Positions 4,275 to 26,455 of a stretch of DNA of 29,739 bases are shown in pieces. Source of the stretch: a virus; IMG/VR virus record IMGVR_UViG_3300032093_007230, positions 1 to 29,739 of that record, one strand, 5' to 3'. Each line of letters begins with the position of its first letter. The first letter of the stretch is position 1. Both the position numbers and the translations under genes were made by a program. Under the pieces are notes generated by a model that worked only from the letters and a program-made list of their open reading frames with translations, did not search any database and was not told the DNA's origin.

Positions 4275-4275
4275 C

Positions 4276-5538: not shown

Positions 5539-5542
5539 TCTA

Positions 5543-5554: not shown

Positions 5555-5568
5555 GAAGGTTTTTGGGA

Positions 5569-6159
5569 TTAGGACTGAACCCGGTTCTCGATTTCGTCCC
5601 AAGTCGCCGCGTTCTTCTTATTCCGGCGACCGGTGTCCGAGAGCATCTTCGCGACGAAGAAGGCTTGCCGGGGAGAGAGGGGACGCTCGACGAGTTGATT
5701 CGCGAGAGACTCGGCGAAGGTTTCGCGGTTAGGGTTGTAGGTGTCGCGGTCGGCGACGGCGCGGTCGGCGAGGCCGGCGAGGATGTCGGCGAACTTCTCG
5801 CGGCGACCGGCGACCCGGGCTTCGCGCTCGGCGACCTCGGCGCGATGCTCGGCGGCGAGGGCTTCCTGCCTAGCGTCGCGACGCTCGCGCTCCTCGGAGG
5901 TAATCCCGGCGCGGACGGCGCGAGGGTCGGCTCCGATGCGCTCGGCGCATTGCGTCCCGATGCAAACCTCCGCGCCCTCGGGAGTCTTGCAGATGACATT
6001 ATGAATGATGCCCATCCCGCAATGCGCGCAAGTCCCGGCGTTAGGATACTGAGCGAAGATGCTCGAGACCGCGCCTTGGTAGGCTTCGGGGTTGGATTCT
6101 TGAAGTTCCCGGGAGGGGAACGAGACGAAGGCGATAACTCGGAGGTTGCGGAGGTTCAT
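5569..6159 (-). CDS. Zinc-binding phage protein with Cys cluster and charged helix
   Basis: A 196-residue protein. Residues 44-71 hold C44-x2-C47, H53, C57, C66 and C71 (GTCAHCG, then VICKTPEG, VCIGTQCAERIG), a zinc-ribbon pattern seen in many phage early proteins of unknown role. Residues 85-130 are a long charged helix rich in Arg, Glu and Ala, likely a coiled coil. The C-terminus (LSPRQAFFVAKML) resembles a short helical hairpin. It is the first gene behind the promoter at 6185-6213 and so is probably the first early gene of the replication region. Function not known. Confidence 0.65.
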   Translation of the reverse strand: MNLRNLRVIAFVSFPSRELQESNPEAYQGAVSSIFAQYPNAGTCAHCGMGIIHNVICKTPEGAEVCIGTQCAERIGADPRAVRAGITSEERERRDARQEALAAEHRAEVAEREARVAGRREKFADILAGLADRAVADRDTYNPNRETFAESLANQLVERPLSPRQAFFVAKMLSDTGRRNKKNAATWDEIENRVQS

Positions 6160-6160
6160 C

Positions 6161-6240
6161 GGTAGGGAGTTGGGTTACTTGGACAGTAGAACCCAACCGA
6201 ACCCGCGAGGCAAGTCGAAAGAACACTTTTTTTAAGGGGG
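6161..6240 (-). promoter_or_regulatory. Promoter region P1 of the replication operon
   Basis: Read on the minus strand: an A-tract (TTAAAAAAAG, about 6226-6235), then TTGCCT (6213-6208), a 17-bp spacer with GGTTCGGTTGGGT, then TCTACT (6190-6185), then an AACCC-type leader up to the ATG at 6159. Spacer length and sequence match promoter P4 at 26.4 kb closely. The -10 box is not TATAAT, so the host consensus may differ. Activity is inferred. Confidence 0.5.
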
Positions 6241-14122: not shown

Positions 14123-14147
14123 AAAGCCCCGGGGTCTCCGGGGCTTT
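14123..14147 (-). terminator. Rho-independent terminator, cassette 3
   Basis: Perfect 10-bp stem AAAGCCCCGG / CCGGGGCTTT with a 5-base loop, and the minus-strand run CTTTTCC after it. The core is the same as in the terminators at 17131 and 25620. It closes the 15.0-14.1 kb cassette. Confidence 0.8.
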
Positions 14148-14172
14148 AGATTAGTCGGGCTTAGACTTTAAA

Positions 14173-14412
14173 TCAGACAACCTCGCCGGCGAGTCGCTCG
14201 AGGAACCGGAGCCGGGCGGCGGCGAGCGAGGCGAGCCGGGAGTCGAAGACGCGACCGACGCTATCGACCGAGCCGGCCTTAGCCGCGCTCGCGAGCATCT
14301 TAGCCGTCGACCGAGCCGTCGAGAGAGTTTTCGCCCTCCATTCCGGGGAGAGGTTAGAGAACTCGGCTCGGAGCCGGCATTTCTCGGTTTCGGTTAGGCG
14401 AATGTTTTTCAT
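14173..14412 (-). CDS. Small hypothetical helical protein, cassette 3
   Basis: A 79-residue, basic, Ala-rich protein (MKNIRLTETEKCRLRAEFSNL, then SAAKAGSVDSVGRVFDSRLASLAAARLRFLERL), wholly helical in appearance with no known motif. It is the last gene of the cassette and is preceded by five GGG/TT repeats (14414-14439), the longest AACCC leader in the window. DNA or protein binding is possible but not shown. Confidence 0.6.
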   Translation of the reverse strand: MKNIRLTETEKCRLRAEFSNLSPEWRAKTLSTARSTAKMLASAAKAGSVDSVGRVFDSRLASLAAARLRFLERLAGEVV

Positions 14413-14413
14413 C

Positions 14414-14439
14414 GGGTGGGTTGGGTTGGGTTGGGTTGG
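14414..14439 (-). promoter_or_regulatory. AACCC-repeat leader, longest copy
   Basis: Five GGG runs on the plus strand (14414, 14418, 14423, 14428, 14433) make a strong G-quadruplex candidate on the template strand. The mRNA carries CCAACCCAACCCAACCCACCCG directly before the ATG at 14412, without a Shine-Dalgarno site. Confidence 0.6.
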
Positions 14440-14442
14440 AGA

Positions 14443-14916
14443 TTAGTTCGAGGCGACGCGAGCGTCGTAAGCCTTAAGAAGACCGGAGCAATCTCCGGCG
14501 AAGTATGCGGCTCGGTTATAAGCCCCGGCTCCGCGCCGGCTCTTCTCGAGGGACTTCATCGAGATTTCCGAGGCAATCATCCGAGCCCGAATAACGGCTC
14601 GGGCGACCGGGCGAAGGTGGGATTGCCAAGGGGTTTCGAGGAGGTCTCCCATCGACTTCTTGAACTTCGTTCCGTGGCAAGTTATCCGGCTACGGCGAAT
14701 CTTCGGGGAGAAGTCGTAGAATGTCGCGGACTTGAGGACTGACATAGCCTTTCGGAGTTCGGGGCTCTTCGAGAGTTCGACGAGCATTTCCCCGGATTCG
14801 TTCCGGGTGTAGGTTCGGCCATCGGCTAGTGATGCCGCGTGAATGTCGGTCAATCGCTCGAGCGCGGAGGCGACGGCGGCGAGGACTTCCGGGGAGTATG
14901 TTTTTCGGGTGTTCAT
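14443..14916 (-). CDS. Hypothetical protein, first gene of cassette 3
   Basis: A 157-residue, basic, mostly helical protein that I do not recognise. It opens with a Lys/Thr-rich segment and helices (VLAAVASALERLTDIHAASL), and a central basic patch (FSPKIRRSRITCHGTKFKKS) could bind nucleic acid. It is the first gene behind promoter P2 and starts with the conserved ACCCGATG leader. By its promoter it is grouped with the first genes of the other two cassettes rather than with the tail genes around it. Confidence 0.6.
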   Translation of the reverse strand: MNTRKTYSPEVLAAVASALERLTDIHAASLADGRTYTRNESGEMLVELSKSPELRKAMSVLKSATFYDFSPKIRRSRITCHGTKFKKSMGDLLETPWQSHLRPVARAVIRARMIASEISMKSLEKSRRGAGAYNRAAYFAGDCSGLLKAYDARVASN

Positions 14917-15000
14917 CGGGTTAGTTATTGGGTTGCGGGTTCAAGATGAACCCTACTCGAAACTAGGTCAACTCTTTAAAGCATCTTTTTTTATAACCCG
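14917..15000 (-). promoter_or_regulatory. Promoter region P2 with palindromic operator
   Basis: Read on the minus strand: TATAAAAAAAG tract (about 14984-14994), TTGACC (14971-14966), a 17-bp spacer, CATCTT (14948-14943), then a leader ending in AACCCGATG. The -10-like box sits inside a perfect inverted repeat GGGTTCA-N3-TGAACCC (14937-14953), placed where a repressor would block polymerase. Promoter P3 repeats this leader almost base for base. Confidence 0.62.
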
Positions 15001-15115
15001 GTAGGGTCATTTATACCCCTTAGAAATGCCCTAGGAAGCCGGCTTCTCCCCCTACCCCTAGTCCTACCCCGACCCGGGAGCCCGGCTAGCCTAGCGACCC
15101 GGCTAGGCCGGTTCC
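15001..15115. terminator. Non-coding stretch with GC-rich hairpin after the tape measure gene
   Basis: A stem-loop forms from CCGGCTAGCC (about 15081-15090) with GGCTAGGCCGG (15101-15111), with one bulge. It lies just after the tape measure stop and may end its transcript, although no clear T-run follows on the minus strand. The rest holds short C-rich repeats (CCCCTACCCCTAG) and an ATTTATACCCC element like those near the other promoters. Confidence 0.4.
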
Positions 15116-16489
15116 TCAGTAGTCCCCGGGCTCGACCCCGGAACCCTCGGCTCCACCTGCCCGGAGCCTCTCGGCCGTCTCCTCGGTCGCGTCCGCAATC
15201 CGGGTAAGGGTCGAGAGGGTGACATCCGGGGCGAAGGCGAAGCCGCCTCCCCCGACAGTTTGTATCGCTTGCGCGACGATGCCCGAGGTCGACGCGGTCG
15301 GGAGCGTAGTCCCGGGAGTCGTCCCGCCGGCGGCGGCGGCGTCGGCTCGAGCCTTAGTCGCTTGCCTAGCGGCCTCGGCGATACTCTCCGGGGTAATCAA
15401 CTCGATACCCTTAACAACCCCTCCCAATCCGGAAAGTCCTTTAAGCCTGTTGATTTGCTCGGCTAGTTGCTCCGGTGTCTTCTCAGCCATTCCGAGAACG
15501 CTCTCGGCCGAGATTCCGGACTTCTTCATCGCGGCGAGGAACTGCTCGGATTGAACCTTCCGGAAGAACTCGATAGCCTCCGGGCTCGCGTTAGCGAAAG
15601 CCCCGGAAACTCCGGTTCGCTGAAGTCTAGCCTCGGCCGTCGGGAAAAGCCTTCGCCCGAAAGTCCGTCCGTAGAAGTCGCCATAGGTTAGGAGAGCCTC
15701 TCCGCGAGGAGAGAGAGCCCGGGTGACTCCGGTAAAGCCGGCTTCTTCGCCTCGTCGGAACTGCTCATCAAGTCGGGCTTGCTCGTTCTCATTAAGTTCG
15801 TCGGTTCCGAATGTGCCGCCGAATGAACCGACGACCCCGGCCTTTATGTTATTCCATCGACGCTCCATCCTCTCGAGAATCTCATCCATCCGTTGCAACT
15901 TCGCGACCTCGATATCCGAGAGGATTGGAGCGTCGGCCATATTTCTCTTGAGACCGTCGAGGTCTTGAAAGAGGGTCATCGCGTCGACGGCGGCTCGGTT
16001 CCCGAAGATTTCCCGGAGAGCCGCGACGCGCTGAGGAGTCGTCAAATCCTTTAGTCCGTTTGCCATCTGCTCGAATGCCCGACCCGGGTCGTTCTGAGCG
16101 ATAACCTCGGCGGTCACTCCTACCGCCTTCATAGTCTCAGCGAGTTTCGTGTCGCGCCCGGCGCGGCTCATCGCGAGCCGGAGTTTGTCGAGGAGACCTC
16201 CGGCCTTCTCGGAGGTAATGCCAACCTCGTTAGCGGCGAACTCTATTTTCTGAAGGTCGGAGGTAGAGACCCCGAACCGGGCGGCTCGGTCGGCGACATC
16301 GCCGAACTTCTTCGCCGCCTCCCTCATCATCGAGTAACCCTTTACAACCCCGGCGGCGGCGGCGGCGAATCCGAGATAGCGGGTCGCGAGCGAGCCGGCG
16401 AACTCGGAAGCCTTGCCTCGGAGGGAGTCGAGTCCGCGCTTAACCTCCGAGCCGTCGAAGGAGGCTTTAACTTTGATTTCCGCACCCAT
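15116..16489 (-). CDS. Tail tape measure protein (short)
   Basis: A 457-residue protein. It opens with the usual tape-measure start (MGAEIKVKASFDGSEVKRGLDSLRG), followed by a hydrophobic Ala-rich helix (about 36-52, TRYLGFAAAAAGVVKGY) and long helices with LQKIEFAANEVGITSEKAGGLLDKLRLAMS, typical of the lambda H family. Tape measures span the tail lumen and set its length. At about 0.15 nm per residue this implies a tail of roughly 70 nm, short for a siphovirus. It directly follows the putative chaperone gene (TAAATG junction) with AAGG as ribosome binding site. Confidence 0.78.
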   Translation of the reverse strand: MGAEIKVKASFDGSEVKRGLDSLRGKASEFAGSLATRYLGFAAAAAGVVKGYSMMREAAKKFGDVADRAARFGVSTSDLQKIEFAANEVGITSEKAGGLLDKLRLAMSRAGRDTKLAETMKAVGVTAEVIAQNDPGRAFEQMANGLKDLTTPQRVAALREIFGNRAAVDAMTLFQDLDGLKRNMADAPILSDIEVAKLQRMDEILERMERRWNNIKAGVVGSFGGTFGTDELNENEQARLDEQFRRGEEAGFTGVTRALSPRGEALLTYGDFYGRTFGRRLFPTAEARLQRTGVSGAFANASPEAIEFFRKVQSEQFLAAMKKSGISAESVLGMAEKTPEQLAEQINRLKGLSGLGGVVKGIELITPESIAEAARQATKARADAAAAGGTTPGTTLPTASTSGIVAQAIQTVGGGGFAFAPDVTLSTLTRIADATEETAERLRAGGAEGSGVEPGDY

Positions 16490-17104
16490 TTACCTTCCCG
16501 GCTTGGTAGCGGCTCGGGGCTTCCTCATCGTCGCCGCGACCTTAGCCTCGGCCTCCCGGATGGCCGCGTCGACCTCGGGCAACTCGTCTTCCCTCTCGGT
16601 AGTAAGAACCTCCATCTCGGCTCCCTTGCGAATCGAGCCGGCGACATAATACCAAACCGCGAGTCCCTCCGGCATAGTCCAAACCCTCTCTTCGTCGAAG
16701 CCGGCCTCGATGAGCGCGGTCGCGACGGTAAGAGTCCAATGGACTCCTTTCCCTCCTCCCCCCTTCGGCTCGAAGAAGAGCGACGGAGGAGTCGAGAACT
16801 CCTCGACATAGTCCGCGAATGCGGCCGAGTGAAACTCGAGGAGACCGGGACGGCGACGCATCTTGACCCCGGCGAACCAATCGGAGAACGACGAGCCGGA
16901 GACAGCCTCGAGAGGGTCGTCGAGCGAGCATATGCGAACCGCGAGGATGAGGTCGACGGCTGTCGCCCGGCTACCGGGATTGACGAAGGGCGAGCCGATA
17001 GCCTCGAGCGCGAGCCGGTGACGCATCGAGAAGGGCTTTAGCAACCGGCCGAGGACTCGGCGCGGCCGGGCGAAGAACACTCCGAGGAAACGGTCGTCTC
17101 TCAT
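16490..17104 (-). CDS. Putative tail assembly chaperone or minor tail protein
   Basis: A 204-residue protein from ATG 17104 (GGGAGCGATA upstream). It contains RHRLALEAIGSPFVNPGSRATAVDLILAVRICS near the start and GLAVWYYVAGS near residue 165, features I associate with phage proteins encoded just before the tape measure. Chaperones at that place usually bind the tape measure and direct tube assembly. No frameshift site of the lambda G/GT kind was identified. The gene is complete. Family uncertain; the call rests mostly on position. Confidence 0.45.
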   Translation of the reverse strand: MRDDRFLGVFFARPRRVLGRLLKPFSMRHRLALEAIGSPFVNPGSRATAVDLILAVRICSLDDPLEAVSGSSFSDWFAGVKMRRRPGLLEFHSAAFADYVEEFSTPPSLFFEPKGGGGKGVHWTLTVATALIEAGFDEERVWTMPEGLAVWYYVAGSIRKGAEMEVLTTEREDELPEVDAAIREAEAKVAATMRKPRAATKPGR

Positions 17105-17130
17105 TATCGCTCCCGGGTTGGGAAACAAAA

Positions 17131-17151
17131 AGCCCCGGGGTCTCCGGGGCT
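17131..17151 (-). terminator. Rho-independent terminator, cassette 2
   Basis: Stem AGCCCCGG / CCGGGGCT with a 5-base loop, then TTTTTGTTT on the minus strand. The core is the same as in the terminators at 14123 and 25620. It lies after the LexA-like gene and ends the 18.5-17.1 kb cassette. Confidence 0.85.
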
Positions 17152-17160
17152 AGTCGCCGG

Positions 17161-17487
17161 CTACCGGGAGAAGTCCGGCGGCTCGAGACCTAGGAACTCC
17201 CAAGCCCGGGGAGTTAGCCGGAAGGAGCGAGCCCGGCGACCGGGCTTAGCCGGGAAGAGGTTCGGCTTCCGAGCCGGGGTCTCCGGGACAGGACTCTTAG
17301 CGACGAACCCCTTCTCCTCTAGTTCGGCCGCGTGAGTGAAGACGGCCGAGGGGGATATCCCTCCCATCGCGTCGGCGATATCCCGGAAGGTCGGGGGCAT
17401 ACCGAGTTCCGACATCGTCGAGACATAGGCTCGGAGGAACTCGACTTGCCTCTCGGTCGGCTCCGGGTTGTAGGCTCGAGGGCTCAT
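17161..17487 (-). CDS. LexA-type winged-helix repressor without protease domain
   Basis: A 108-residue protein. Residues 10-64 (PTERQVEFLRAYVSTMSELGM, then PPTFRDIADAMGGISPSAVFTHAAELEEKGFV) follow the LexA N-terminal DNA-binding domain closely: the TxRQ start, the GMPPT turn, the recognition helix with SPSAV, and LEEKGF. The C-terminal 45 residues are basic and do not contain the Ala-Gly cleavage site or the Ser/Lys protease residues, so it should not self-cleave. It is the last gene of the cassette behind promoter P3, whose operator palindrome may be its target, giving autoregulation. ATGA overlap with the upstream gene. Confidence 0.72.
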   Translation of the reverse strand: MSPRAYNPEPTERQVEFLRAYVSTMSELGMPPTFRDIADAMGGISPSAVFTHAAELEEKGFVAKSPVPETPARKPNLFPAKPGRRARSFRLTPRAWEFLGLEPPDFSR

Positions 17488-17795
17488 TCGGCCGGGAGCG
17501 CGTCGCGCTCGTCTATCGTCTCGACGAACCGGGCGAGGTTGGTAAGGTCTTGAGCCGAGGCGACAAGTCCGTCGGCGAGGTCTTCGCCGGCGAACCTATC
17601 GAGGAGGCATACGAGCCTCCTCCGTCGGCCGATGGCGGCGATTGGGGAGCCGGCCTCGAGGACGAGGTCGCGGAGAGAGGACATTGCCTTGATGCGGTCG
17701 GCTCGGTTAGCCGGGCGAACCCGGTAAGTTATAGCCTCGACCTTGGCGCGGAGCCCGAGAGGTCGGGCTTTCTTATTTTGGTTTTTGGTTTTCAT
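17484..17795 (-). CDS. Small basic hypothetical protein, cassette 2
   Basis: A 103-residue protein with a very basic start (MKTKNQNKKARPLGLRAKVEA) and a helical remainder (ADRIKAMSSLRDLVLEAGS, then LVASAQDLTNLARFVETIDER). No known motif. It lies between the histone-fold gene and the LexA-like gene, with an AACCC leader upstream (17797-17813) and an ATGA overlap downstream. The basic N-terminus suggests nucleic-acid contact. Confidence 0.6.
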   Translation of the reverse strand: MKTKNQNKKARPLGLRAKVEAITYRVRPANRADRIKAMSSLRDLVLEAGSPIAAIGRRRRLVCLLDRFAGEDLADGLVASAQDLTNLARFVETIDERDALPAE

Positions 17796-17796
17796 C

Positions 17797-17813
17797 GGTT
17801 GGGTTGGGTTGGG
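17797..17813 (-). promoter_or_regulatory. AACCC-repeat leader
   Basis: Four G runs (GGTTGGGTTGGGTTGGG on the plus strand) give CCCAACCCAACCCAACC in the mRNA, directly followed by GATG. No Shine-Dalgarno site is present. Confidence 0.6.
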
Positions 17814-17816
17814 AAG

Positions 17817-18008
17817 TTAGCGTCCGAAGATGTAGCCGAAGACGGCCGCGTCGAGAGTCTTCCTCCCGCCGTTATGCTCCTCGAGGGCTTGCTCGACCTT
17901 GCGCTCGAGGTGGCCGTCGAGGGCGGCGAGGAAGTCCTTTCCGATTCGCTTCCCCCTTTGCTTCGCGAGTCGCTTGATTGCGGCCGGCTTGATAAACTGA
18001 GTCTTCAT
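17817..18008 (-). CDS. Histone-fold protein (63 residues)
   Basis: MKTQFIKPAAIKRLAKQRG, then RIGKDFLAALDGHLERKVEQA, then GGRKTLDAAVFGYIFGR. The pattern is a short helix, a long central helix, then the Arg-Lys-Thr loop and a last helix. It matches the minimal histone fold of archaeal and bacterial histones, where RKT closes loop 2. Single-fold bacterial histones of the Bdellovibrio type pair as dimers and bind or bend DNA. The start ATG 18008 follows an AACCC leader (18010-18026). A longer reading to 18380 exists, but its added part overlaps the upstream gene and lacks this leader. A role in phage or host DNA packaging or regulation is inferred. Confidence 0.7.
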   Translation of the reverse strand: MKTQFIKPAAIKRLAKQRGKRIGKDFLAALDGHLERKVEQALEEHNGGRKTLDAAVFGYIFGR

Positions 18009-18009
18009 C

Positions 18010-18026
18010 GGTTGGGTTGGGTTGGG
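18010..18026 (-). promoter_or_regulatory. AACCC-repeat leader of the histone-fold gene
   Basis: Identical to the leader at 17797-17813 (17 bp, four G runs on the plus strand), directly followed by GATG. The identity between two neighbouring genes of unrelated sequence shows that the element, not the coding region, is conserved. Confidence 0.62.
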
Positions 18027-18027
18027 A

Positions 18028-18462
18028 TTAGAGATTCGCCTCGAGGGTCTCAGCGACGACCTCGTCGAGCGAGAGGTCTTCCCGGGCTTCCCGGATTTGA
18101 TTCTTAGCCCGGTCAATCGCGAGGGGGCAGACGAAGCCGTCCTCGCCGGGCTTGGCATCGGCGAGAGCGAGGGCGAGGAGCGCGGTCTCGGTATCGAACT
18201 CGGTTCGCTCAATCTTCGCCTCGACTTGAGCGAGCCGGGAGCGATTGCAGTTAGCGAAGGTCGCGCAAGCGTCGAGGTAGTCCGAGAGCGACCTCTCGGC
18301 GATTCGGGCGAGGCAAGCCTTAGCCTCGAACCGGGAGGGCTTCGAGCCGGCTTCGCGGAGGAGAACCTCGAGCCGGGCATAGAACTTGAACTCGTCCCGG
18401 TCGAGGTAGGGGTTTCCTTCGACGATGCCGGAGAGGTTGAGTTGAGGGAGGGACTTTTTCAT
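18028..18462 (-). CDS. Hypothetical protein, first gene of cassette 2
   Basis: A 144-residue protein, not recognised. Helical and charged (YLDRDEFKFYARLEVLLREAG, SDYLDACATFANCNRSRLAQVEAKIER), with four cysteines (C50, C67, C73, C112) that are too dispersed to call a zinc site. First gene behind promoter P3, with a leader almost identical to that of 14443-14916, although the proteins are unrelated. Probably early expressed. Confidence 0.6.
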   Translation of the reverse strand: MKKSLPQLNLSGIVEGNPYLDRDEFKFYARLEVLLREAGSKPSRFEAKACLARIAERSLSDYLDACATFANCNRSRLAQVEAKIERTEFDTETALLALALADAKPGEDGFVCPLAIDRAKNQIREAREDLSLDEVVAETLEANL

Positions 18463-18545
18463 CGGGTTAGTTATTGGGTTGCGGGTTCAAGATGAACTCC
18501 CCGGTGAATAGGTCAATACCTTATCTCGTCTTTTTTTTATAAATC
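18463..18545 (-). promoter_or_regulatory. Promoter region P3 with palindromic operator
   Basis: Read on the minus strand: TTTATAAAAAAAAG (18529-18542), TTGACC (18516-18511), a 16-bp spacer, CATCTT (18494-18489), and the operator GTTCA-N3-TGAAC (18485-18497), then CCGCAACCCAATAACTAACCCG up to ATG 18462. The last 36 bases are the same as in P2. The cassette behind it encodes a LexA-type protein. Confidence 0.65.
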
Positions 18546-18548
18546 GGA

Positions 18549-18583
18549 GGGGGGATTTATACAGGCCGGGAACCCTGTATCTA
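18549..18583. promoter_or_regulatory. Inverted TACAGG / CCTGTA element
   Basis: TATACAGG and CCCTGTATCTA face each other across seven bases. GGAACCCTGTATCTA (18569-18583) recurs at 6267-6281 with one change, and related TACAGGG elements lie at 26441 and 22030. Possible binding site for a phage or host regulator. Confidence 0.4.
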
Positions 18584-18605
18584 TCGGGCTTCCTAGCCTA
18601 ACGAA

Positions 18606-18628
18606 GAGCCCGGCTCGCGGCCGGGCTC
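18606..18628 (-). terminator. Terminator-like hairpin after the tube-like gene
   Basis: Stem GAGCCCGGC (18606-18614) / GCCGGGCTC (18620-18628) with a 5-base loop. The T-run after it on the minus strand is weak (TTCGTT). It lies between the structural genes to the right and cassette 2 to the left. Confidence 0.6.
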
Positions 18629-18651
18629 CCTTAACCTCTCCGGTCTCCCGG

Positions 18652-19020
18652 TTAGGAAATCGACTCGTAAGCCGTCCCGCGAATCGAGACCGACCGCCAG
18701 CCCTTTTGCTGGCCGCGAACCGTGACGGAATCGACGAGGATATTCGACAGGTTGCCGGCAACCTCGCCGCAATCGTAGGAGATTTTAGAGCCGGGCTGAA
18801 GAGCCGAGAAGCCGGTCTCCTTAATCAGTCCGTTAATCGTGACCCCGACAGTCCCGGAGGAATAGCGGACGGTCTTCGTAACGCCGTCCTCGTCGGCGGC
18901 GGTGTCCTTGTTCTCGAAGCCGGATTCCGCGTCGAAGTCGGTAACATAGAGACCGGCATAGGTATTCGTTCCGTAGACGATTGCTACGCCGTGAGACTGA
19001 GGGGAGGACGGAGTCGCCAT
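18652..19020 (-). CDS. Putative tail tube-type or small structural protein
   Basis: A 122-residue, strand-rich protein (VAIVYGTNTYAGLYVTDFDAESG, TVRYSSGTVGVTINGLIKE, VRGQQKGWRSVSIRGTAYE) with AGGA eight bases before ATG 19020. It follows the tail terminator-like gene, where a tube protein is expected, but it is short for a major tube protein and I recognise no family. A terminator-like hairpin follows. Confidence 0.45.
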   Translation of the reverse strand: MATPSSPQSHGVAIVYGTNTYAGLYVTDFDAESGFENKDTAADEDGVTKTVRYSSGTVGVTINGLIKETGFSALQPGSKISYDCGEVAGNLSNILVDSVTVRGQQKGWRSVSIRGTAYESIS

Positions 19021-19044
19021 TTCCTATCCCGACCGCGTCAACTT

Positions 19045-19476
19045 TTAGTCGAGGGGAATGTCGAGGCAGACGAGAGCCGAGAGAGTGAGCGTGTTCCCGA
19101 ACTTGCGCTCCTCGCGACCCTCCTCGTCCCCGACGAGGTTAAGGTCGTAGAGGATGGAGTCCTCGGGCATAAACTCTTCCACTAAGTCAGCGTCGACGAT
19201 TGCGTCCCGGACGGCCGAGACGGTATCCCGGTGAGAGCCGAGCGCGTCCTCGCCGTCGGCTAGGCTGAGGACTTGAACCTCTATCGTTACCTCGTAGTTA
19301 CCCGAGAAGGGGTCGAGGTCGTCCGGAGTCCTAGCCCCGGAAGCGTAGACGATGGCGGCGGGGACTGTCCGGTCGTCGGAGGTTTGGCCGTTATGAACGA
19401 CGAGCCCGGCTACCGAGGCCGAGAGGACGGCTGAGATTGCGTCCTCCATAACGGAGCGAGGGTTAGAGGCCGGCAT
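19045..19476 (-). CDS. Tail terminator / minor tail protein U-like
   Basis: A 143-residue protein: helix first (MEDAISAVLSASVAGLVVHNG), then alternating strands (TVPAAIVYASGARTPDD, NYEVTIEVQVLSLADGE), a second helix (DTVSAVRDAIVDADLVEEF) and a final strand (LTLSALVCLDIPLD). This order fits tail-terminator proteins (lambda gpU fold), which cap the tail at the head end. GGGGGGAG precedes ATG 19476. Position after the completion protein and before the tube supports it. Similarity is by fold pattern only. Confidence 0.5.
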   Translation of the reverse strand: MPASNPRSVMEDAISAVLSASVAGLVVHNGQTSDDRTVPAAIVYASGARTPDDLDPFSGNYEVTIEVQVLSLADGEDALGSHRDTVSAVRDAIVDADLVEEFMPEDSILYDLNLVGDEEGREERKFGNTLTLSALVCLDIPLD

Positions 19477-19492
19477 AATGCTCCCCCCGGGG

Positions 19493-20680
19493 TCAACCGT
19501 CGCGGCCGTATATGGCCTCGAACTGACTAGCCCCGGTCTTCGAGCCGAGTCGCTTTTTCATAACCGCCTCGATAACCTTCCGCATTGCCCGAGTTCGGTT
19601 CTTAATCGCCCGGTCGGTATAGCGAAGCCGGCTGTCGATGTTCCCCGCGTTGCCTATTGAGTTTTGAAGGGTAATGGCGAAATCGAGGTTCATAGGACTT
19701 GACGCGTTCCATTCGGTCGAGCGTCCGTTCCCTTTCTTTCCGCTAATCCAACTGTCAATCTGAGGCTCGCTAGTCCCGCCGGGCTTGGGAATCCGGAAGC
19801 CGGCATCAATCCAACCGCCCTTAACTTTGCCAATCCGGGAGATGAGCGACTTCCCTACCGAGTTGATTAGCGACCGGGTATCCTTCCGACCCTCTAGGAC
19901 GATGAGTTGCCGGAAGCCTTGCTTCCGCGAGTAGGAATCCAACTCCTCCCGGTAGGGAGTCCCGCCGACTCCCCGGACGACCCGGAGGCTACTCGGCCGA
20001 ACCCGGCCACCGGCGACACCGGCGAAGGTAGTTCCCCCCCCGCTACTCCTCGACTGAATAGAGGATTCTCCGTCGGGCTTAATGAACCTCTTAAGATTGT
20101 AGAGAGCCTTAGCCGGGTCGACGAGCGCGGCTCGCATAATGCGGAAGATGACCGAGCCGAAGTTCTCCTCCCGGTATTCGCCGGACTTAGTCTTTATCCG
20201 GGTAGACCTAACCTTCCCGCCGTCGCTAAGAGCCTCGATAGCCTGTCTCTCGACATCGGCTAGGGAGGTCGGGGTCTTCGTCCCTCCGAAGAAGTTCGAC
20301 AACTTCGTTTGCTTCGTCGCCTCGCGTCTCCATTTACCGAGGAAGTCCCGGGCGAGGATGTTAAGGATAATCGGATTATCTAGGTAGGAAGCCTCGCGGA
20401 GAGAGAGACTCCCGGCCGAGCGATGGATTTTATGAAGGTCTTTAAAGATTCGCTTCTCCATCGTCTTTCGAGCCTTCGACTTTAGTCCGTTCTTCCCCCA
20501 TAGGGCTCCCGCGTTGGGGAGCGCGAGGCCGGCTAGTTCGATTGCAAGCCGGCGGGACTCGGCTCGGAGAGCGTCCCGGACGGACTTCCCGGTCTCCCGG
20601 GCTATCCCGGACAAGGCTTGCCCGAACCCCTTAGCGTCGACCGAGTAGGACAGCCCGGAGGGGAGGGCAGATTGCCTCAT
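19493..20680 (-). CDS. Putative tail completion protein (gpZ / HK97 gp10 region), enlarged
   Basis: A 395-residue protein from ATG 20680 (TAATG junction with the upstream gene). It opens with LSYSVDAKGFGQALSGIARETGKSVRDALRAESRRLA, a helical start like minor tail Z or gp10-like proteins, which act at the head-tail junction. Those are usually 120-200 residues, so this one is enlarged. Its middle is basic (KRIFKDLHKIHRSAG) and its end is helical (NRTRAMRKVIEAVMKKRLG). The frame open to 20716 uses a non-ATG start and was not taken. Function by position; moderate to low certainty. Confidence 0.5.
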   Translation of the reverse strand: MRQSALPSGLSYSVDAKGFGQALSGIARETGKSVRDALRAESRRLAIELAGLALPNAGALWGKNGLKSKARKTMEKRIFKDLHKIHRSAGSLSLREASYLDNPIILNILARDFLGKWRREATKQTKLSNFFGGTKTPTSLADVERQAIEALSDGGKVRSTRIKTKSGEYREENFGSVIFRIMRAALVDPAKALYNLKRFIKPDGESSIQSRSSGGGTTFAGVAGGRVRPSSLRVVRGVGGTPYREELDSYSRKQGFRQLIVLEGRKDTRSLINSVGKSLISRIGKVKGGWIDAGFRIPKPGGTSEPQIDSWISGKKGNGRSTEWNASSPMNLDFAITLQNSIGNAGNIDSRLRYTDRAIKNRTRAMRKVIEAVMKKRLGSKTGASQFEAIYGRDG

Positions 20681-21003
20681 TAGAAATCCCGGGGTTCGAC
20701 ATCGACGCGAACCCAAGCCGCGAAAGCCCGGCTCGAGACCGCGTTAATCGTGAACTCCCGCCCCTCGATAATGACGACCTCCCCGGTCTCCGGTAGCCCG
20801 GAGAAGGGAGCCGCGAGCAAGGTTGAACGGACGAACTTAACCGAGTAACTAGTCGAGTCCTTAAAGCCGCCGGCCATAAGGGACTCCCCGACTTGAGGCT
20901 CGGAGACGATAGCGGAGACCGGGTTCCCCCGGAAGGTAACAGTCCTCCCAATCTCCGAGACAATCTCGGAAGCGTCGGCCGCGAACTCGTCGAAGATACT
21001 CAT
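20680..21003 (-). CDS. Head-tail joining protein (lambda gpFII-like)
   Basis: A 107-residue protein: IGRTVTFRGNPVSAIVSEP near the start, ETGEVVIIEGREFTINAVSSRAFAAWVRVDVEPRDF at the end. The short strand-rich barrel with VxIxGxxYxI-type strands is usual for gpFII or head-tail stopper proteins, which bind the neck and the tail. It is the first gene after the capsid terminator, the expected site. The ATG at 21003 has no strong Shine-Dalgarno site. Confidence 0.6.
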   Translation of the reverse strand: MSIFDEFAADASEIVSEIGRTVTFRGNPVSAIVSEPQVGESLMAGGFKDSTSYSVKFVRSTLLAAPFSGLPETGEVVIIEGREFTINAVSSRAFAAWVRVDVEPRDF

Positions 21004-21054
21004 CGGGTCAAGAGGTCAACTCTCCCTCGGGAGTCAATCGTCCCGGGAAAAGAA

Positions 21055-21080
21055 AAGGGCTCCCGGTTAGGGGAGCCCTT
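21055..21080 (-). terminator. Strong terminator after the major capsid gene
   Basis: Perfect 10-bp stem AAGGGCTCCC / GGGAGCCCTT with a 6-base loop, then TTCTTTTCCC on the minus strand. It would set a high capsid-to-tail transcript ratio. Confidence 0.8.
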
Positions 21081-21099
21081 CGGCTAATCGGCTAGGCGA

Positions 21100-22023
21100 T
21101 TAGTTACCGGGGTGGATAACAGGGACAATCGTGTTCTTGTTACCGAGGGCAACGCCGGTAAGCCACTCGAGCCGGAGGAAATGCTTGCCCGAGACCGGGT
21201 CGAAGAACTTCATAACGGCGAAGGAGAAGCCGGAGTCGGGGTCGGTCGCGACGGCGAAGTCGGCATAGGTAGCGGCCGAGACAGCGGGAGCGCGGTTGAC
21301 GACGATAAACGAGGACTTGTTCCCGGCGATGCCGCCGAGGTCGGAGACGCCGGATTCGTAGGCGAAACTAGTCCCGCCGAGGAGCGAGGTCTCGTAGACA
21401 TCGAGGCCGTGAATGCGGCCGACATTATTGTTCCGCATCACCTCGGAACCGCCGAGGGAGAAGACTTGAGCGACGGTGTTATCCGAGACGAGACCGCCGT
21501 AGTTGGCGACCGAGAGCATAAGGCTACGACCCTCGGGGGCGACATTCTTCGAGGAGAGTTGGGTCGCAATCGCGATGATATCGCTTCGGTCGAAGTCGCC
21601 GTCGCTGGCGAGCGAAACAGGGGTCGCGCCGGTGAGGTTGGTCGAGGTCACGAGACCGAAAGCCTTGTCGAAGATGCTCTTGACGACGGCATTAGCGGCC
21701 GGCTCGAGGAAGGTGTCGACGATGCGGTCGAAGGAGTAGGTCGCGGCTTCCTTCGGCTTAACCTCGATTTGGACATAGTCGGGTTCGCCGAGGGTGACGG
21801 AGCGAGCCTCGGAGACGGCATTCGAGGAAGCGTAGGAACCGGCATAGGTCGAGGCCGTGAAGGGCGACGCGATGCGGGTTACGACGGTCTCGCCGGACTG
21901 AGCGACATCGGCCGAGAAGTCCGTCGAGAGGACTTGGAGGCCGGCCAACTTGGGGAGGAGGGTCTTAAGACCGGCTTGCGCGATGATATCGGCAGAAAGA
22001 CCGGCAAAGTTATTGGTGGACAT
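21100..22023 (-). CDS. Major capsid protein
   Basis: A 307-residue protein directly after the scaffold gene. The N-terminus (MSTNNFAGLSADIIAQAGLKTLLPKLAGLQVLSTDFSADV) and the GETVVTRIASPFTASTYAG motif, followed by VQIEVKPKEAATYSFDRIVDTFL, resemble P22-type coat proteins of the HK97 fold. It ends with HFLRLEWLTGVALGNKNTIVPVIHPGN. No N-terminal delta domain is present, which fits the presence of a separate scaffold protein. The ATG at 22023 has no Shine-Dalgarno site despite the high expression expected; it has an ATTTACAGGG element upstream. Confidence 0.82.
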   Translation of the reverse strand: MSTNNFAGLSADIIAQAGLKTLLPKLAGLQVLSTDFSADVAQSGETVVTRIASPFTASTYAGSYASSNAVSEARSVTLGEPDYVQIEVKPKEAATYSFDRIVDTFLEPAANAVVKSIFDKAFGLVTSTNLTGATPVSLASDGDFDRSDIIAIATQLSSKNVAPEGRSLMLSVANYGGLVSDNTVAQVFSLGGSEVMRNNNVGRIHGLDVYETSLLGGTSFAYESGVSDLGGIAGNKSSFIVVNRAPAVSAATYADFAVATDPDSGFSFAVMKFFDPVSGKHFLRLEWLTGVALGNKNTIVPVIHPGN

Positions 22024-22049
22024 AGTAGTTATTTACAGGGTGAAAGGGA

Positions 22050-22457
22050 TTAGCGACCGACGAGGATTCGCTCGAATCGGTTATAGAACTCGGCCTTAGC
22101 CTTCGGGTCGTCGATAGAACGGAACTCGGCGAGAAGTTCGTCGCGGGAGCGAGGAGCCTCGACAGCGGCGGCGGGAGTCGCGGCGACCGGGGCAGGGAGC
22201 CCGGCGGCGGCGACAATCTTCGCGGCTTGCTCGTTAGCGTCGACCTTCGCGGTCTCGAGTTCGGCGACCTTGGCGGCGAGCGTGTCGCGCTCGGCGACGG
22301 CGGCGGCGAGGTTAGCGGAGGTCTCTTCGAGGGAAGCCTTCGACTTCTCGAGGGAAGCGACAGCCTCGGCGAGCGCGGATTCGGCGGCGACGGCCTTAGC
22401 CTCGGACGCGATGGCGCGGTCTTCGGGGCTGAGGGTTTCGGAATGTTCCGGGTTCAT
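22050..22457 (-). CDS. Scaffolding protein (coiled coil)
   Basis: A 135-residue protein that is mostly one long coiled coil (about residues 12-80, alternating Ala, Glu and Leu: ALAEAVASLEKSKASLEETS and on), then an Ala/Pro-rich linker, then a helix-turn-helix end (RDELLAEFRSIDDPKAKAEF) of the kind by which scaffold proteins bind coat protein. It lies between the protease and the capsid genes, as lambda Nu3 and similar scaffolds do. It has GGGGAAAG seven bases before the ATG. Confidence 0.72.
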   Translation of the reverse strand: MNPEHSETLSPEDRAIASEAKAVAAESALAEAVASLEKSKASLEETSANLAAAVAERDTLAAKVAELETAKVDANEQAAKIVAAAGLPAPVAATPAAAVEAPRSRDELLAEFRSIDDPKAKAEFYNRFERILVGR

Positions 22458-22487
22458 TATCTTTCCCCAAACGGTAAAGTTTTTATC

Positions 22488-23318
22488 TCAGCGGGAGACC
22501 TTCTCGAACTTCGAGAGAAGGGCATTAAGGGAGTTGGCCGTCCCGGTCGCGAGACCCTTAGCGACAGCCTCCCGGCCGGTGAAGACTTGACCCTCCATCG
22601 ACTCGGCCGCGACACCCTTGCGGACGGACTTAACAGCCGTCTTGAATCGGGAATGAACCTCATTGATGGCGGCTTGCATAATCTCCTTCTCCTCGTCGGA
22701 GACAGTCGTCCCGGGGACGAAGCCGGCCTTATGCTTACCGGCTCGTAGGACTTCGACTCTTAACCCAAGTTGCTCGAGTTGCTTAGTCCGGTCGACCCAA
22801 CTCACGAGAGCCCCGATGGAGCCGACCTTCGCGCTCGGAGCGACGACGACCTCGGTCGCTTGTGAGGCAACCCAATAAGCCGCCGAAGCCGCCATCCTGC
22901 CCGGGGCGACATAGGAGATGACCTTCTTCTCCTTCGCGAGATTGCGGACAACCTCGGCGGCTTCCTCGACTCCCCCGACAGTCCCGCCGGGCGAGTTGAA
23001 ATCGAGGACGACCCTCTTAATCCCGGGAGCCGAAGCCCGGCTCTCGAGCGTGTCGGCGAACTCGTTAACATCGAAGCCTCCGAGCATCTTCTCGAGGGGG
23101 GAGAAGTCCGAGCCGACGACCCCGACAAAGGGGACGACTAGGGTAGAGCCTCGGACATACGGCTCGACGGAGCCGGCCGAGAGGAGTTCGGCAACGGACG
23201 CGGCCTCGCTAGCCGGGCGAGACGCGACCGAGGTAACTCGCTCGATGAACTCGACCGCCTCGACCTCGCGGATAAGGAGGGGCTCGAGATTGAGCAATCC
23301 GAGAGCGAGGTCTTTCAT
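22488..23318 (-). CDS. Prohead protease, S49 (SppA/lambda C) family
   Basis: A 276-residue serine protease. VVLDFNSPGGTVGG (103-116) is the oxyanion and strand motif; S145 in RMAASAAYWVAS is the nucleophile; K195 or K197 in AGKHKAGFVPG is the likely general base. This matches the ClpP-fold S49 peptidases that process scaffold and coat proteins in maturing heads. The nested scaffold of lambda C is not present in frame; scaffold is a separate gene. The ATG at 23318 was chosen; an in-frame TTG at 23339 overlapping the portal stop would add seven residues. Confidence 0.88.
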   Translation of the reverse strand: MKDLALGLLNLEPLLIREVEAVEFIERVTSVASRPASEAASVAELLSAGSVEPYVRGSTLVVPFVGVVGSDFSPLEKMLGGFDVNEFADTLESRASAPGIKRVVLDFNSPGGTVGGVEEAAEVVRNLAKEKKVISYVAPGRMAASAAYWVASQATEVVVAPSAKVGSIGALVSWVDRTKQLEQLGLRVEVLRAGKHKAGFVPGTTVSDEEKEIMQAAINEVHSRFKTAVKSVRKGVAAESMEGQVFTGREAVAKGLATGTANSLNALLSKFEKVSR

Positions 23319-23335
23319 TTCAAATCCCGGGCTCG

Positions 23336-25330
23336 TCAAGTTTCCCGGCTGTCGAGCGCGGCGAGTTTCTTATCTGCCCATTCAGCCGCCCGGAGAGAGC
23401 CGTCCGCGTCTCCCGCCCATAGTAGCCAAGCGACGAGTCCGGCTCCGGGATAACCGGGAGCCTTCGGGTTCCGGTTCTTCGGAGCGCGGAGGTCGGACTT
23501 GTGCCTCTTTAGCCAAGCCGACAGCCGGCGAAGTTTCTCGACAGTAACCTTCCCGGTCGACGCAATCTCCCGGGCTTCGTTAATCGTCTGCCTCTTGAGT
23601 CCGTCACCGGCGAAACCCTTCTCGACATAGGCGAGACCCTTACGGCAGTTGGAGCGATAGAACGCGGGGACGGAGACGGTCTCCGAGTCCGGGGCTTGCG
23701 CTCGCTCGGTAAGCCCGGCGAACTTAGCCTCCGAGGTCTCGACGAGTTCGTCGTCCTCCTCGTCGACCGGCTCGGTCGAGTCGTCGTCTTCCCCCTCGGA
23801 GTCATCCTCGACGGAGGGGTCTTCGGGTTCGCCGTCCTCGACACCGGGAGCCGGACTAGCCTCGGCCGTTCCCTTCTTAGTCGAGGGAGAGAAAGCCGGA
23901 GTCAGCCAAGCGAAGCCGGGCTTAAAGAAGAACTCGAGGGGGACTCCGGTCTCCTTCGAGACGCGCATAATCTCCGCGAAGTCTTGAGCGCGGCCGCGAA
24001 CCTCCTTCGAGAAGTTGAGACCTCGCTCGGCGAAGTCGTCCTTAAGTCGCTTAAGTCCGAACTCGATGTCGCTCCGATTCGCGTTGGACTCGCGGCCGGC
24101 ATCGACCGAGATTCGCCGGGGATAGACAAAGGCGAAGGACTTCTCCCACCCATCGACGGCGGGGAGTTTGCCCTTCTCGATAGCGTCGGCGATAACGAAG
24201 GCAGTCCATCGGCGAAGGAACTTCTCGATAGCGTTTTGCCGGAGACGGACGCGACGCTCGACCCGGGCGACGACGAGACGGACGACGGCTCCTCCCATCT
24301 TATTCGGGTCGATGAGCCAATCGGAAGGAAGCCCGGTCGCGACGAGGGAGTCGCGGTTAAGATGGTCGACGAAGCCGGTAAAGGTCGACGAGGGGCGGGA
24401 CGAGGAGAAGGACTCGAGACGCTCTCCGGGAGAGATGGCGACGGTCACGCCGCCGGCGCGTCGGTCGATATCGTCGGGGTCGGTTCCCTGCCCGGCTGAG
24501 TTAGTCCCGAGAATCCCCGCGTCGTTCTCGTCGAACTCGCCGGCTTGTGTAGTTAGCGTCCTAGCGATTCGGCTATTTTCCTTAACCGCGACTTTCTCGG
24601 CCGCGAGTATTTCCTTAAGGTCTCGGAGCGTCGGGATAGCCGCGACAAGCGGAGAGATACCCCTCGCGCCGGAGTAGTGTTCCGGTTCGTAAATATGAGA
24701 GACAGCCGACGCGGGAATCTCCCGGGTTCGTCCGTCGTCCTCGATAACGCGATAGGCAACCGGGCGACCGACGGAATCAAACTTGATGCCATCAACCCAA
24801 CCGGGCTCGGAGTTCGAGGGTGAATACTGCCCACCCATCCCGACCCGGTGAGCCTCGAGGAGTTGGACTTTCGGATTCCCCATCTCGTCCCGGACGAAGA
24901 CGGCCATAATATCTCCGTCGACATCAATAGCCCGGCAGATGAGATGCTCCATCTCGACGAGCGTAAAGCGTCCGCAAATCGTCGGGGCGATATTGGCATC
25001 CTCGACGATTGCCTCGGCCTTAGTCCGGTAGTCGTCGTCCGGGTGCTGAATCTCCGGAGTTATGCCGGTATCCCCGACCGCGTAGGTCGCGACCTCGGAG
25101 ACATAGGCTCGGACTACGCCGGAGGACTTCTCGAGCGACCGGAGGAGCCGCATCAACTCGATGCGGTCGGCCGAGGTCATCTCCTTACGGAAGTCGGCCG
25201 GGGCTGTATGGTTAACCCGGGCGCGAGCGTAGGACTCCCGGACGCTATCGAAGTTCGACGCTCGGGGAGCGAGGAGCCCGGCTAGGTAGGCTCGGGCTCG
25301 GGTGATTAGGGAGGCTCGGGGTCGGGGCAT
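23336..25330 (-). CDS. Portal protein (lambda B family) with C-terminal extension
   Basis: A 664-residue protein. Residues 1-500 follow the lambda portal pattern: RESYARARVNHTAPADFRKEM, RGISPLVAAIPTLRDLKEI (clip and stem region), ESFSSSRPSSTFTGFVDH and GAVVRLVVARVERRV. It forms the twelve-fold channel at one head vertex. Residues about 500-550 are an acidic linker of Glu, Asp and Ser. Residues about 555-660 (RKGLAYVEKGFAGDGL, RLSAWLKRHKSDL, PGYPGAGLVAWLLWAGDA) form a second domain which I have seen attached to various phage head proteins. Its role is unknown. TAATG junction with the upstream gene. Confidence 0.88.
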   Translation of the reverse strand: MPRPRASLITRARAYLAGLLAPRASNFDSVRESYARARVNHTAPADFRKEMTSADRIELMRLLRSLEKSSGVVRAYVSEVATYAVGDTGITPEIQHPDDDYRTKAEAIVEDANIAPTICGRFTLVEMEHLICRAIDVDGDIMAVFVRDEMGNPKVQLLEAHRVGMGGQYSPSNSEPGWVDGIKFDSVGRPVAYRVIEDDGRTREIPASAVSHIYEPEHYSGARGISPLVAAIPTLRDLKEILAAEKVAVKENSRIARTLTTQAGEFDENDAGILGTNSAGQGTDPDDIDRRAGGVTVAISPGERLESFSSSRPSSTFTGFVDHLNRDSLVATGLPSDWLIDPNKMGGAVVRLVVARVERRVRLRQNAIEKFLRRWTAFVIADAIEKGKLPAVDGWEKSFAFVYPRRISVDAGRESNANRSDIEFGLKRLKDDFAERGLNFSKEVRGRAQDFAEIMRVSKETGVPLEFFFKPGFAWLTPAFSPSTKKGTAEASPAPGVEDGEPEDPSVEDDSEGEDDDSTEPVDEEDDELVETSEAKFAGLTERAQAPDSETVSVPAFYRSNCRKGLAYVEKGFAGDGLKRQTINEAREIASTGKVTVEKLRRLSAWLKRHKSDLRAPKNRNPKAPGYPGAGLVAWLLWAGDADGSLRAAEWADKKLAALDSRET

Positions 25331-25593
25331 TAGGAGAAGTCTTTACCTCGGAGGTCGGAGATTAGGAATCTACGGCGACGACCCCAAACCTCGGGGTTCA
25401 GTTTCCTCAGCGCGAACTTAACTTCGTCGAGGACTACATCGACCGGGAGTGTAAAGGCTTTCCCGACCGAGGTTCCCGAGTCGGAATAATTAAGGACGAC
25501 GAGACCCTTCGAGATTGCCTCGCGAGCCTTGTCGCGAATCGAAAGAAGTTCGGCTTCGGTAAAGCCGATGTCCGCTAGGATGCCTCGAGCCAT
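25330..25593 (-). CDS. gpW-like head-completion protein
   Basis: An 87-residue protein with TEAELLSIRDKAREAISKG, then a strand turn (VVLNYSDSGTSVGKAFT) and a final helix (LDEVKFALRKLNPE) with basic residues (GRRRRF). This helix, hairpin, helix order and the place between terminase and portal genes match lambda gpW, which binds the portal after packaging and joins it to the tail connector. GAGG upstream of ATG 25593. Confidence 0.65.
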   Translation of the reverse strand: MARGILADIGFTEAELLSIRDKAREAISKGLVVLNYSDSGTSVGKAFTLPVDVVLDEVKFALRKLNPEVWGRRRRFLISDLRGKDFS

Positions 25594-25619
25594 TTAACCT
25601 CCCGGCTCGGGAAAAGAAA

Positions 25620-25642
25620 GAGCCCCGGGGTCTCCGGGGCTC
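25620..25642 (-). terminator. Rho-independent terminator, cassette 1
   Basis: Stem GAGCCCCGG / CCGGGGCTC with a 5-base GGTCT loop, then CTTTCTTTT on the minus strand. The core is the same as the terminators at 14123 and 17131. It closes the 26.4-25.6 kb cassette. Confidence 0.82.
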
Positions 25643-25663
25643 GTGGCCGGCGAGGTTCGGGGC

Positions 25664-25900
25664 TTAGGCTCCCCGGTCGCGGACGACGGCGAGGAGGGCG
25701 AGGAGGGTCTCGTCCGGGACGCGAGCCCCGGTGGGGATTCCGAGGAGGCTCTTCGCCCCCCTCCTCCAATCGGCTTGGAAGCCCGGCGCGGACTTCGACT
25801 TGTAAGGTCGGAAGGTCGCGAGGGCGGTTCGGGCTTGTGCGGCGGCGGCGAAGCAATCGAGATTGCGGAGCCGGGCTTCGACGAGTTCGAGGTAGTTCAT
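25664..25900 (-). CDS. Small hypothetical protein, cassette 1
   Basis: A 78-residue protein: MNYLELVEARLRNLDCFAAAAQARTALATFRPY, then SAPGFQADWRRGAKSLLGIPTGARV, then PDETLLALLAVVRDRGA. Three helices with a basic middle; no known family. Last gene of the cassette, with an AACCC leader upstream (25902-25916) and a terminator 20 bases downstream of its stop. Confidence 0.6.
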   Translation of the reverse strand: MNYLELVEARLRNLDCFAAAAQARTALATFRPYKSKSAPGFQADWRRGAKSLLGIPTGARVPDETLLALLAVVRDRGA

Positions 25901-25901
25901 C

Positions 25902-25916
25902 GGTTGGGTTGGGTTA
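25902..25916 (-). promoter_or_regulatory. AACCC-repeat leader
   Basis: The plus-strand ggttgggttgggtta gives TAACCCAACCCAACC followed by GATG. It belongs to the same class as the leaders at 17797 and 18010. No Shine-Dalgarno site. Confidence 0.58.
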
Positions 25917-25920
25917 GGAG

Positions 25921-26082
25921 TTAGGCGACCTCCGGCACAAGCCGGACACCGGCCGCAATCGCGGCGGCTCGGGCGCGGAAGAACTTAATCCGGTTCTTCC
26001 GGTTCGGGGTGTTCTCGAGCCGGAGTTCCGCGACGCGGAGGTCTTCGGCGGCGATTTGCTTCTTCTTGTCTTGGGTGTTCAT
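25921..26082 (-). CDS. Small basic hypothetical protein (53 residues), cassette 1
   Basis: MNTQDKKKQIAAEDLRVAEL, then RLENTPNRKNRIKFFRARAA, ending AIAAGVRLVPEVA. Basic and helical, with a possible nucleic-acid-binding patch NRKNRIKFFRAR. The frame, the AACCC leader (26084-26100) and the ATG directly behind it support it as real although short. Not recognised. Confidence 0.58.
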   Translation of the reverse strand: MNTQDKKKQIAAEDLRVAELRLENTPNRKNRIKFFRARAAAIAAGVRLVPEVA

Positions 26083-26083
26083 C

Positions 26084-26100
26084 GGGTGGGTTGGGTTGGG
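26084..26100 (-). promoter_or_regulatory. AACCC-repeat leader
   Basis: Four G runs on the plus strand (GGGTGGGTTGGGTTGGG) read in the mRNA as CCCAACCCAACCCACCC, followed by GATG. Same class and same spacing as the copy at 14414. Confidence 0.6.
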
Positions 26101-26104
26101 GAGA

Positions 26105-26350
26105 TTAGCGGACTTCGCCCTCGTAGGTCGGGACTTCGAGTTCCCGGGCGAGTTGATGGAGCCGGGACTGAGCGAGGCAAGTCGTCGTCGAGTCGAGACC
26201 GACCCGGGCGAGGGTGAGGTTCGCGACGCGGAAGGCAGATAGAGCCTTCTTGCTTCCGGCCTCGGCGACGAGGGCGGCTAGGAGGGCTCGGGTAGCGGAC
26301 TCCTCGATTTCGAGGGCGGCGGCGAGCGGGGACTTGGTAGGGTTGTTCAT
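26105..26350 (-). CDS. Small hypothetical helical protein, first gene of cassette 1
   Basis: An 81-residue protein (MNNPTKSPLAAALEIEESATRALLAALVAEAG, then SAFRVANLTLARVGLDSTTTCLAQSRLHQLARELE) made of Ala/Leu helices, without a known motif. It lies directly behind promoter P4, with the conserved CAATAACTAACCCGATG leader that also precedes the genes at 14916 and 18462. Its place between terminase and portal genes, with its own promoter and terminator, marks it as a regulatory or accessory gene rather than a structural one. Confidence 0.6.
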   Translation of the reverse strand: MNNPTKSPLAAALEIEESATRALLAALVAEAGSKKALSAFRVANLTLARVGLDSTTTCLAQSRLHQLARELEVPTYEGEVR

Positions 26351-26455
26351 CGGGTTAGTTATTGGGTTGCCCGGATAGTTGAACCCAACCGAACCCCATC
26401 GTCAACACCCAAATAAAGAAAGTCCCGGAACCCGCATAAATACAGGGAAAGAAAC
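26351..26455 (-). promoter_or_regulatory. Promoter region P4 of cassette 1
   Basis: Read on the minus strand: TTGACG (26405-26400), a 17-bp spacer with GGTTCGGTTGGGT, TCAACT (26382-26377), then the leader to ATG 26350. The spacer matches P1. Only one half (TGAACCC) of the P2/P3 operator is kept. A TACAGGG element lies upstream at 26441-26447. This stretch also separates the terminase stop from the cassette. Confidence 0.5.

Follow-up and report, generated by a model that had tools for sequence, protein, structure and literature searches.

Three candidate moron-like operons in the late region of a putative Verrucomicrobiota phage share expression signals with its replication operon

Why should three groups of short genes, each framed by control elements of one repeated design, interrupt the virion genes of a virus? 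The question is raised by a 29.7-kb virus fragment from IMG/VR (29,739 nucleotides, analyzed as a whole and called here the window), in which all recognisable genes lie on the minus strand. The window encodes TerL, portal, head protease, major head protein and tape measure protein. Because the portal is ~40-46% identical to portals of prophages in Verrucomicrobiota genomes, the host phylum is probably Verrucomicrobiota, and the window probably represents a tailed phage of this group. Named relatives are distant (TerL is 24% identical to that of Verrucomicrobia phage P8625), and IMG/VR yielded just one close relative, a 10.4-kb contig with two SNPs (L006/L008). The C-terminal part of the portal (gene 25330-23336, residues ~552-660) corresponds at 47% identity to a separate 263-aa protein in a Verrucomicrobiota contig (L165, reversed 5086-5877, downstream of the protease gene), and by this match is a gene fusion or split.

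The three cassettes (A, B and C; Table 1) had been proposed, in a sequence-only reading, to follow one shared design, and the elements of this design were all found: a promoter-like block, the leader CAATAACTAACCCGATG, small genes spaced by AACCC, and a common terminator core. The 17-nucleotide leader occurs in three exact copies, all on the minus strand, where 0.02 would be expected by chance. Each copy ends with the ATG start codon of the gene that opens its cassette, and no further copy occurs in the window at up to three mismatches.

Table 1. Positions of the cassettes, their parts, and the early operon in the window
Feature	Position	Strand	Remarks
Cassette A	26455-25620	-	In late operon; 3 genes
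A promoter/leader block	26351-26455	-	-35-like TTGACG 26405-26400; leader 17-mer 26364-26348; ATG at 26350
A block elements	26396-26381; 26388-26362	-	GGGTTCGGTTGGGTTC; inverted repeat TTGGGTT-N13-AACCCAA
A1	26105-26350	-	81 aa; no Pfam, PHROG or PADLOC match
A2	25921-26082	-	53 aa; AACCC leader
A3	25664-25900	-	78 aa; AACCC leader
A terminator	25620-25642	-	GAGCCCCGGAGACCCCGGGGCTC + TTTCTTTT; core 25640-25622
Cassette B	18545-17131	-	In late operon; 4 genes
B promoter/leader block	18463-18571	-	TATAAAT + A-tract; -35-like TTGACC 18516-18511; leader 17-mer 18476-18460; ATG at 18462
B dyad	18499-18483	-	GAGTTCA-TCT-TGAACCC; dyad only at B and C
B1	18028-18462	-	144 aa
B2	17817-18008	-	63 aa; AACCC leader
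B3	17484-17795	-	103 aa; AACCC leader
B4	17161-17487	-	108 aa; LexA-type winged-helix DNA-binding domain; overlaps B3 end; without AACCC leader
B terminator	17131-17151	-	AGCCCCGGAGACCCCGGGGCT + TTTTTGTTT; core 17150-17132
Cassette C	15000-14123	-	In late operon; 2 genes
C promoter/leader block	14917-15025	-	TATAAAT + A-tract; -35-like TTGACC 14971-14966; leader 17-mer 14930-14914; ATG at 14916
C dyad	14953-14937	-	GGGTTCA-TCT-TGAACCC; dyad only at B and C
C1	14443-14916	-	157 aa
C2	14173-14412	-	79 aa; AACCC leader; weak endonuclease PHROG match, E 0.009
C terminator	14125-14145	-	AGCCCCGGAGACCCCGGGGCT + TTTTCCTTT; core 14144-14126
P1, early/replication operon head	6160-6230	-	Related promoter/leader
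P1 elements	6204-6189; 6196-6170	-	GGGTTCGGTTGGGTTC; inverted repeat TTGGGTT-N13-AACCCAA; common to cassette A
Early operon	2320-6159	-	AACCC start signal in common with cassettes
RusA	5075-4557	-	Early operon
RHH-like protein	4538-4293	-	Early operon
Replication initiator	4274-3762	-	Early operon
DnaC-like loader	3748-3047	-	Early operon
SLT-domain protein	2781-2320	-	Early operon

The -35-like hexamers lie ~54-55 nucleotides upstream of the ATG, a spacing consistent with a promoter followed by a short leader. No cassette has a canonical sigma-70 promoter (at least 9/12) or a canonical -10 box. The promoter blocks originally described are therefore present as TTGACN hexamers with a repeated leader, and we infer that they are promoters. 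The upstream regions of cassettes B and C are homologous, with ~104 nucleotides alignable and at least the final 36 identical, and GTTCATCTTGAAC is restricted to these two. The cassette A block has its core in common with the promoter region at ~6.2 kb that precedes the early operon (P1), and GGGTTCGGTTGGGTTC is found in exactly two copies, one in each. Since B resembles C and A resembles P1, two promoter subtypes can be distinguished. A GGGTT/AACCC inverted repeat of 7 bp is perfect in P1 and in the A and C blocks and imperfect in the B block; because it overlaps the expected -10 region, it is as likely to act as an operator as to form a leader RNA hairpin.

Each cassette ends in its own intrinsic terminator, a stem-loop with a T-rich tail. 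The core GCCCCGG-N5-CCGGGGC occurs exactly three times, and its full sequence, GCCCCGG-agacc-CCGGGGC, is the same at all three cassettes. Another strong terminator, whose core is unlike these, lies at 21081-21054 behind the major head protein gene, so late transcription must read past it or restart.

The proteins between these parts are unrelated, as had been proposed, with no significant mutual similarity detected by BLASTP or phmmer. Searches of Pfam, PHROG and PADLOC gave a recognisable function for almost none of them, PADLOC gave no match of weight, and Rfam gave none. A fold search from single-sequence models was abandoned because the models were too poor (pLDDT 41 for B1 and 61 for C1). 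The GC content of cassette genes (0.59-0.68) is close to that of late genes (0.54-0.67) and their GC3 is likewise typical of the phage, which argues that the cassettes are not recent foreign arrivals.

The exception to this lack of recognisable function is B4, which matches PF01726 with 46.7 bits (cut-off 23.7) and thus contains a LexA winged-helix DNA-binding domain. It differs from the LexA repressor in that the C-terminal S24 self-cleaving peptidase domain has no Pfam match in its 108 amino acids, and LexA structures in the PDB match only residues 9-79. From its domain, B4 is a possible controller of the cassettes, a role that had been suggested for all three, but the dyads of the B and C blocks differ from those of the A block and P1, in keeping with the two subtypes.

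Translation start signals associate the cassettes with the early operon. All 18 coding-strand copies of tandem AACCCAACC are located at gene starts. Among genes preceded by an intergenic gap, 13 of the 14 early or cassette genes have an AACCC-type leader, compared with 1 of 11 late genes, and this sole late gene is the one directly behind the cassette B terminator. Sites resembling a Shine-Dalgarno (SD) sequence show the opposite distribution, being present in none of these 14 genes and in 7 of the 11 late genes. The predicted structure of the start region has a median minimum free energy near 0 for AACCC genes and of -8.5 kcal/mol for late genes. The P values for these three comparisons (3.5e-5 by Fisher's test, 7e-4 and 5e-5, respectively) are descriptive, because the leaders come from one genome and are related by descent, so that independence is overstated. 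Only one of six overlapping genes has an AACCC leader, and these genes are probably translationally coupled. The AACCC spacing first noticed between cassette genes is thus real (A2, A3, B2, B3 and C2 have it, and B4 does not), although it is a general start signal of early genes rather than a property of cassettes.

If the cassettes were ordinary late genes, co-transcribed with the virion genes and without separate regulation, the repeats would be a by-product of duplication. The location of every gene on one strand and promoter-like blocks that lack a canonical -10 box are consistent with this view. However, we consider it very improbable, given how sharply start signals and start-region structure separate the gene classes, the three terminators with the same core, and the empty sites in a relative described below.

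The AACCC leaders might allow SD-independent translation via an accessible start region. Some Verrucomicrobia have been described as SD-scarce (PMC10783764), which makes SD-free leaders plausible. Alternatively, the repeats could be sites for an RNA- or DNA-binding regulator of the phage, with early and cassette genes forming one regulon. Their conservation is well above the needs of an unstructured spacer, they occur in tandem, and copies of GGTTGGGTT are inverted to them in P1 and the A block. We nonetheless regard regulator sites as an unlikely explanation, because genes overlapping their predecessor mostly lack AACCC, as expected of a translation signal, and because AC-rich leaders are also enriched in a related host, if only mildly (AACCC/CAACC upstream of genes in sampled DNA).

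A speculative extension of the ribosome-access reading, to which we give little weight at present, is that two translation-initiation codes serve as a temporal address. Tandem AACCC leaders, SD-free and unstructured, would mark early and accessory genes, and structured, often SD-bearing leaders would mark late genes. An AACCC address would then assign a gene to the early regulon wherever it resides, and accessory operons in the late region would not be expressed late. Independently of this extension, if expression data confirm the early-type signals of the cassettes, the two classes of start signal divide the genome into early/accessory and late sets, and accessory genes can be recognised by their start signals alone, whatever their position, which would offer a straightforward way to detect accessory genes that are otherwise hidden in phages of Verrucomicrobiota.

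Two further sequence features were observed. TTGACA followed by ~13-14 nucleotides and a start codon recurs before structural genes of Verrucomicrobiota prophages (L074-L092 and L149-L168; for example, at 8874 and 11595 in L164, reversed, and 12926 in L085) and in the window (19020, 19476 and 11618). TTGAC was found 31 times at -25 to -16, compared with ~1 per 5-bp bin elsewhere. Host genes have TTGAC at -40 to -36 instead, and the prophage motif is too near the start for a usual -35 box. Also, a run of small genes at 1258-2330 in the window has visibly lower GC than the rest of the early operon, and carries six copies of a 24-50 nucleotide repeat that encodes LQAENERLRKAGDAM-like coiled-coil segments.

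Relatives of the phage suggest that the cassettes occupy insertion sites. The late genes of L165, a contig from a Verrucomicrobiota genome, have the same order as those in the window: terS, terL, hj, portal, protease, head protein, ..., mtp, 17104 homologue, tape measure and 14098 homologue (the tape measure was assigned by position and length, and the other named genes by sequence match). All three sites are empty in L165, where gaps of 99, 132 and 5 bp correspond to 862, 1547 and 1017 bp between the same neighbors in the window (A, B and C, respectively), and the cassette genes are therefore extra genes between genes that are adjacent in this relative. Because TerL of L165 is only ~35% identical to that of the window, the empty sites could also reflect loss.

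Elsewhere these sites hold other genes. The interval from terL to hj (or portal) ranges from ~10 to ~6000 bp over 28 prophage contigs, and contains, depending on the relative, ParB-methylase, M15 peptidase, ankyrin-repeat or ABC/GNAT-type genes, or, in P8625, a gene for a 213-aa protein with no Pfam match. Site C is occupied in L166 by a Gp49-like (RelE-type) and Cro/C1-type HTH pair (reversed 16203-16845), which sits between the tape measure gene and the 14098 homologue, and in L085 by one gene of no assigned function. Since the cargo of sites A and C differs among relatives, the slots are, by these comparisons, variable. The positions after terL, before the tape-measure pair, and after the tape measure gene are insertion slots to mine for cargo.

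It had also been proposed that cargo is exchanged between fixed parts. Under this model, promoter, leader and terminator are recombination-competent ends between which cargo is swapped among phages, like T4 cassettes. The long identical leaders and near-identical terminator regions around unrelated cargo are suggestive of such a system, as are slots that carry other cargo in relatives. However, neither of two exact IMG/VR scans nor a search of 388 Verrucomicrobiota genomes detected the control parts in any phage other than the two-SNP contig, the occupied slots of relatives have other ends, and the composition of the cargo is that of the rest of the phage. What relatives have in common is the slots, which persist, and not the control parts. 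Cargo may be exchanged between fixed ends, but we doubt that this explains the cassettes; the repeated ends look as if they had been duplicated within the phage itself, with B and C forming one pair and A and the early promoter the other. Among other candidates from these searches, leader matches in L004, L005 and L007 (IMG/VR) are chance matches, L010, retrieved with CCCAACCCAACC(N)GATGA, is an unrelated phage contig with its match inside a coding region, and L061, the single match in the 388-genome pattern scan, sits at a host gene start. Searches with single proteins (TerL, MCP and B1) returned the near-identical contig or nothing.

The signals in common with the replication operon and the empty sites in L165 make it likely, in our judgment, that the cassettes are moron-like accessory operons that occupy three late-operon slots and bear the phage's own early expression grammar. 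This grammar comprises a GGTTC-based dyad within a promoter-like block, an AACCC leader that is short, unstructured and free of an SD site, AACCC signals ahead of the following genes, and a strong terminator. Expression of the cassette genes would then not depend on the late operon and would take place at an early stage of infection or during lysogeny, and the terminator would stop their transcription short of the virion genes. The earlier idea of early genes inside a late operon is thus supported as far as expression signals are concerned, and it is from these signals that the timing is deduced.

A somewhat stronger competitor than those above, though still on the unlikely side, is that the cassettes are lysogenic-conversion morons, expressed mainly from the prophage under a repressor, and that their early-like signals are just those of expression by host sigma-70. 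Morons classically form independent transcription units among late genes, the pair at site C of L166 is of the toxin-antitoxin type, and B4 is a LexA-type DNA-binding protein. On the other hand, no integrase was found among the genes scanned, which are part of the gene set of a possibly incomplete record, and the replication operon, usually silent in lysogens, has the same signals.

The closest precedents for moron-like operons with early signals are morons, the start-associated sequences that cluster K mycobacteriophages carry, and the promoter-stem-loop cassettes of T4-type phages. The original description of morons comes from HK97 and HK022 (Juhala et al. 2000, cited in PMC7067206). Like the cassettes, morons are accessory genes located between conserved late genes and missing from that place in a relative, and they have a promoter-like block and a terminator of their own. 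Foreign base composition is frequent in morons but not essential, and is not seen in the cassettes. The cassettes also differ in that one genome holds its set of control parts in triplicate, and in that these parts are common to the phage's replication operon. The cluster K sequences (SAS/ESAS) are likewise short repeats just upstream of non-structural gene starts with a real intergenic gap, have inverted repeats upstream of some copies, and are missing from nearly all other phages (PMC3203893). However, they comprise a single 13-bp GGGATAGGAGCCC with the SD core AGGAG, whereas the window has tandem AACCC, no SD-like site in 14 genes, and repeats also on genes inside the structural operon. T4-type cassettes (Arbiol 2010; Comeau 2014), as summarized in PMC4503421, provide a precedent for shuffling, in which repeated early promoter and terminator elements around accessory genes are the proposed mediators. 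By comparison with that summary, promoter and terminator here flank operons of two to four genes, the TerL, portal and TMP families are not T4-like, and no shuffled relative was found. P8625 and the Verrucomicrobiota prophages (L074-L093 and L149-L168) have related TerL, portal (up to 46% identity) and head genes, a partly common late gene order, and variable occupation of sites A and C, but none was seen to share the cassette ends, and no tandem AACCC leaders were seen at the occupied sites inspected. New here are the related promoter/leader on the replication operon, the split between early and late start signals, the different cargo of other relatives at sites A and C, and the empty sites in L165.
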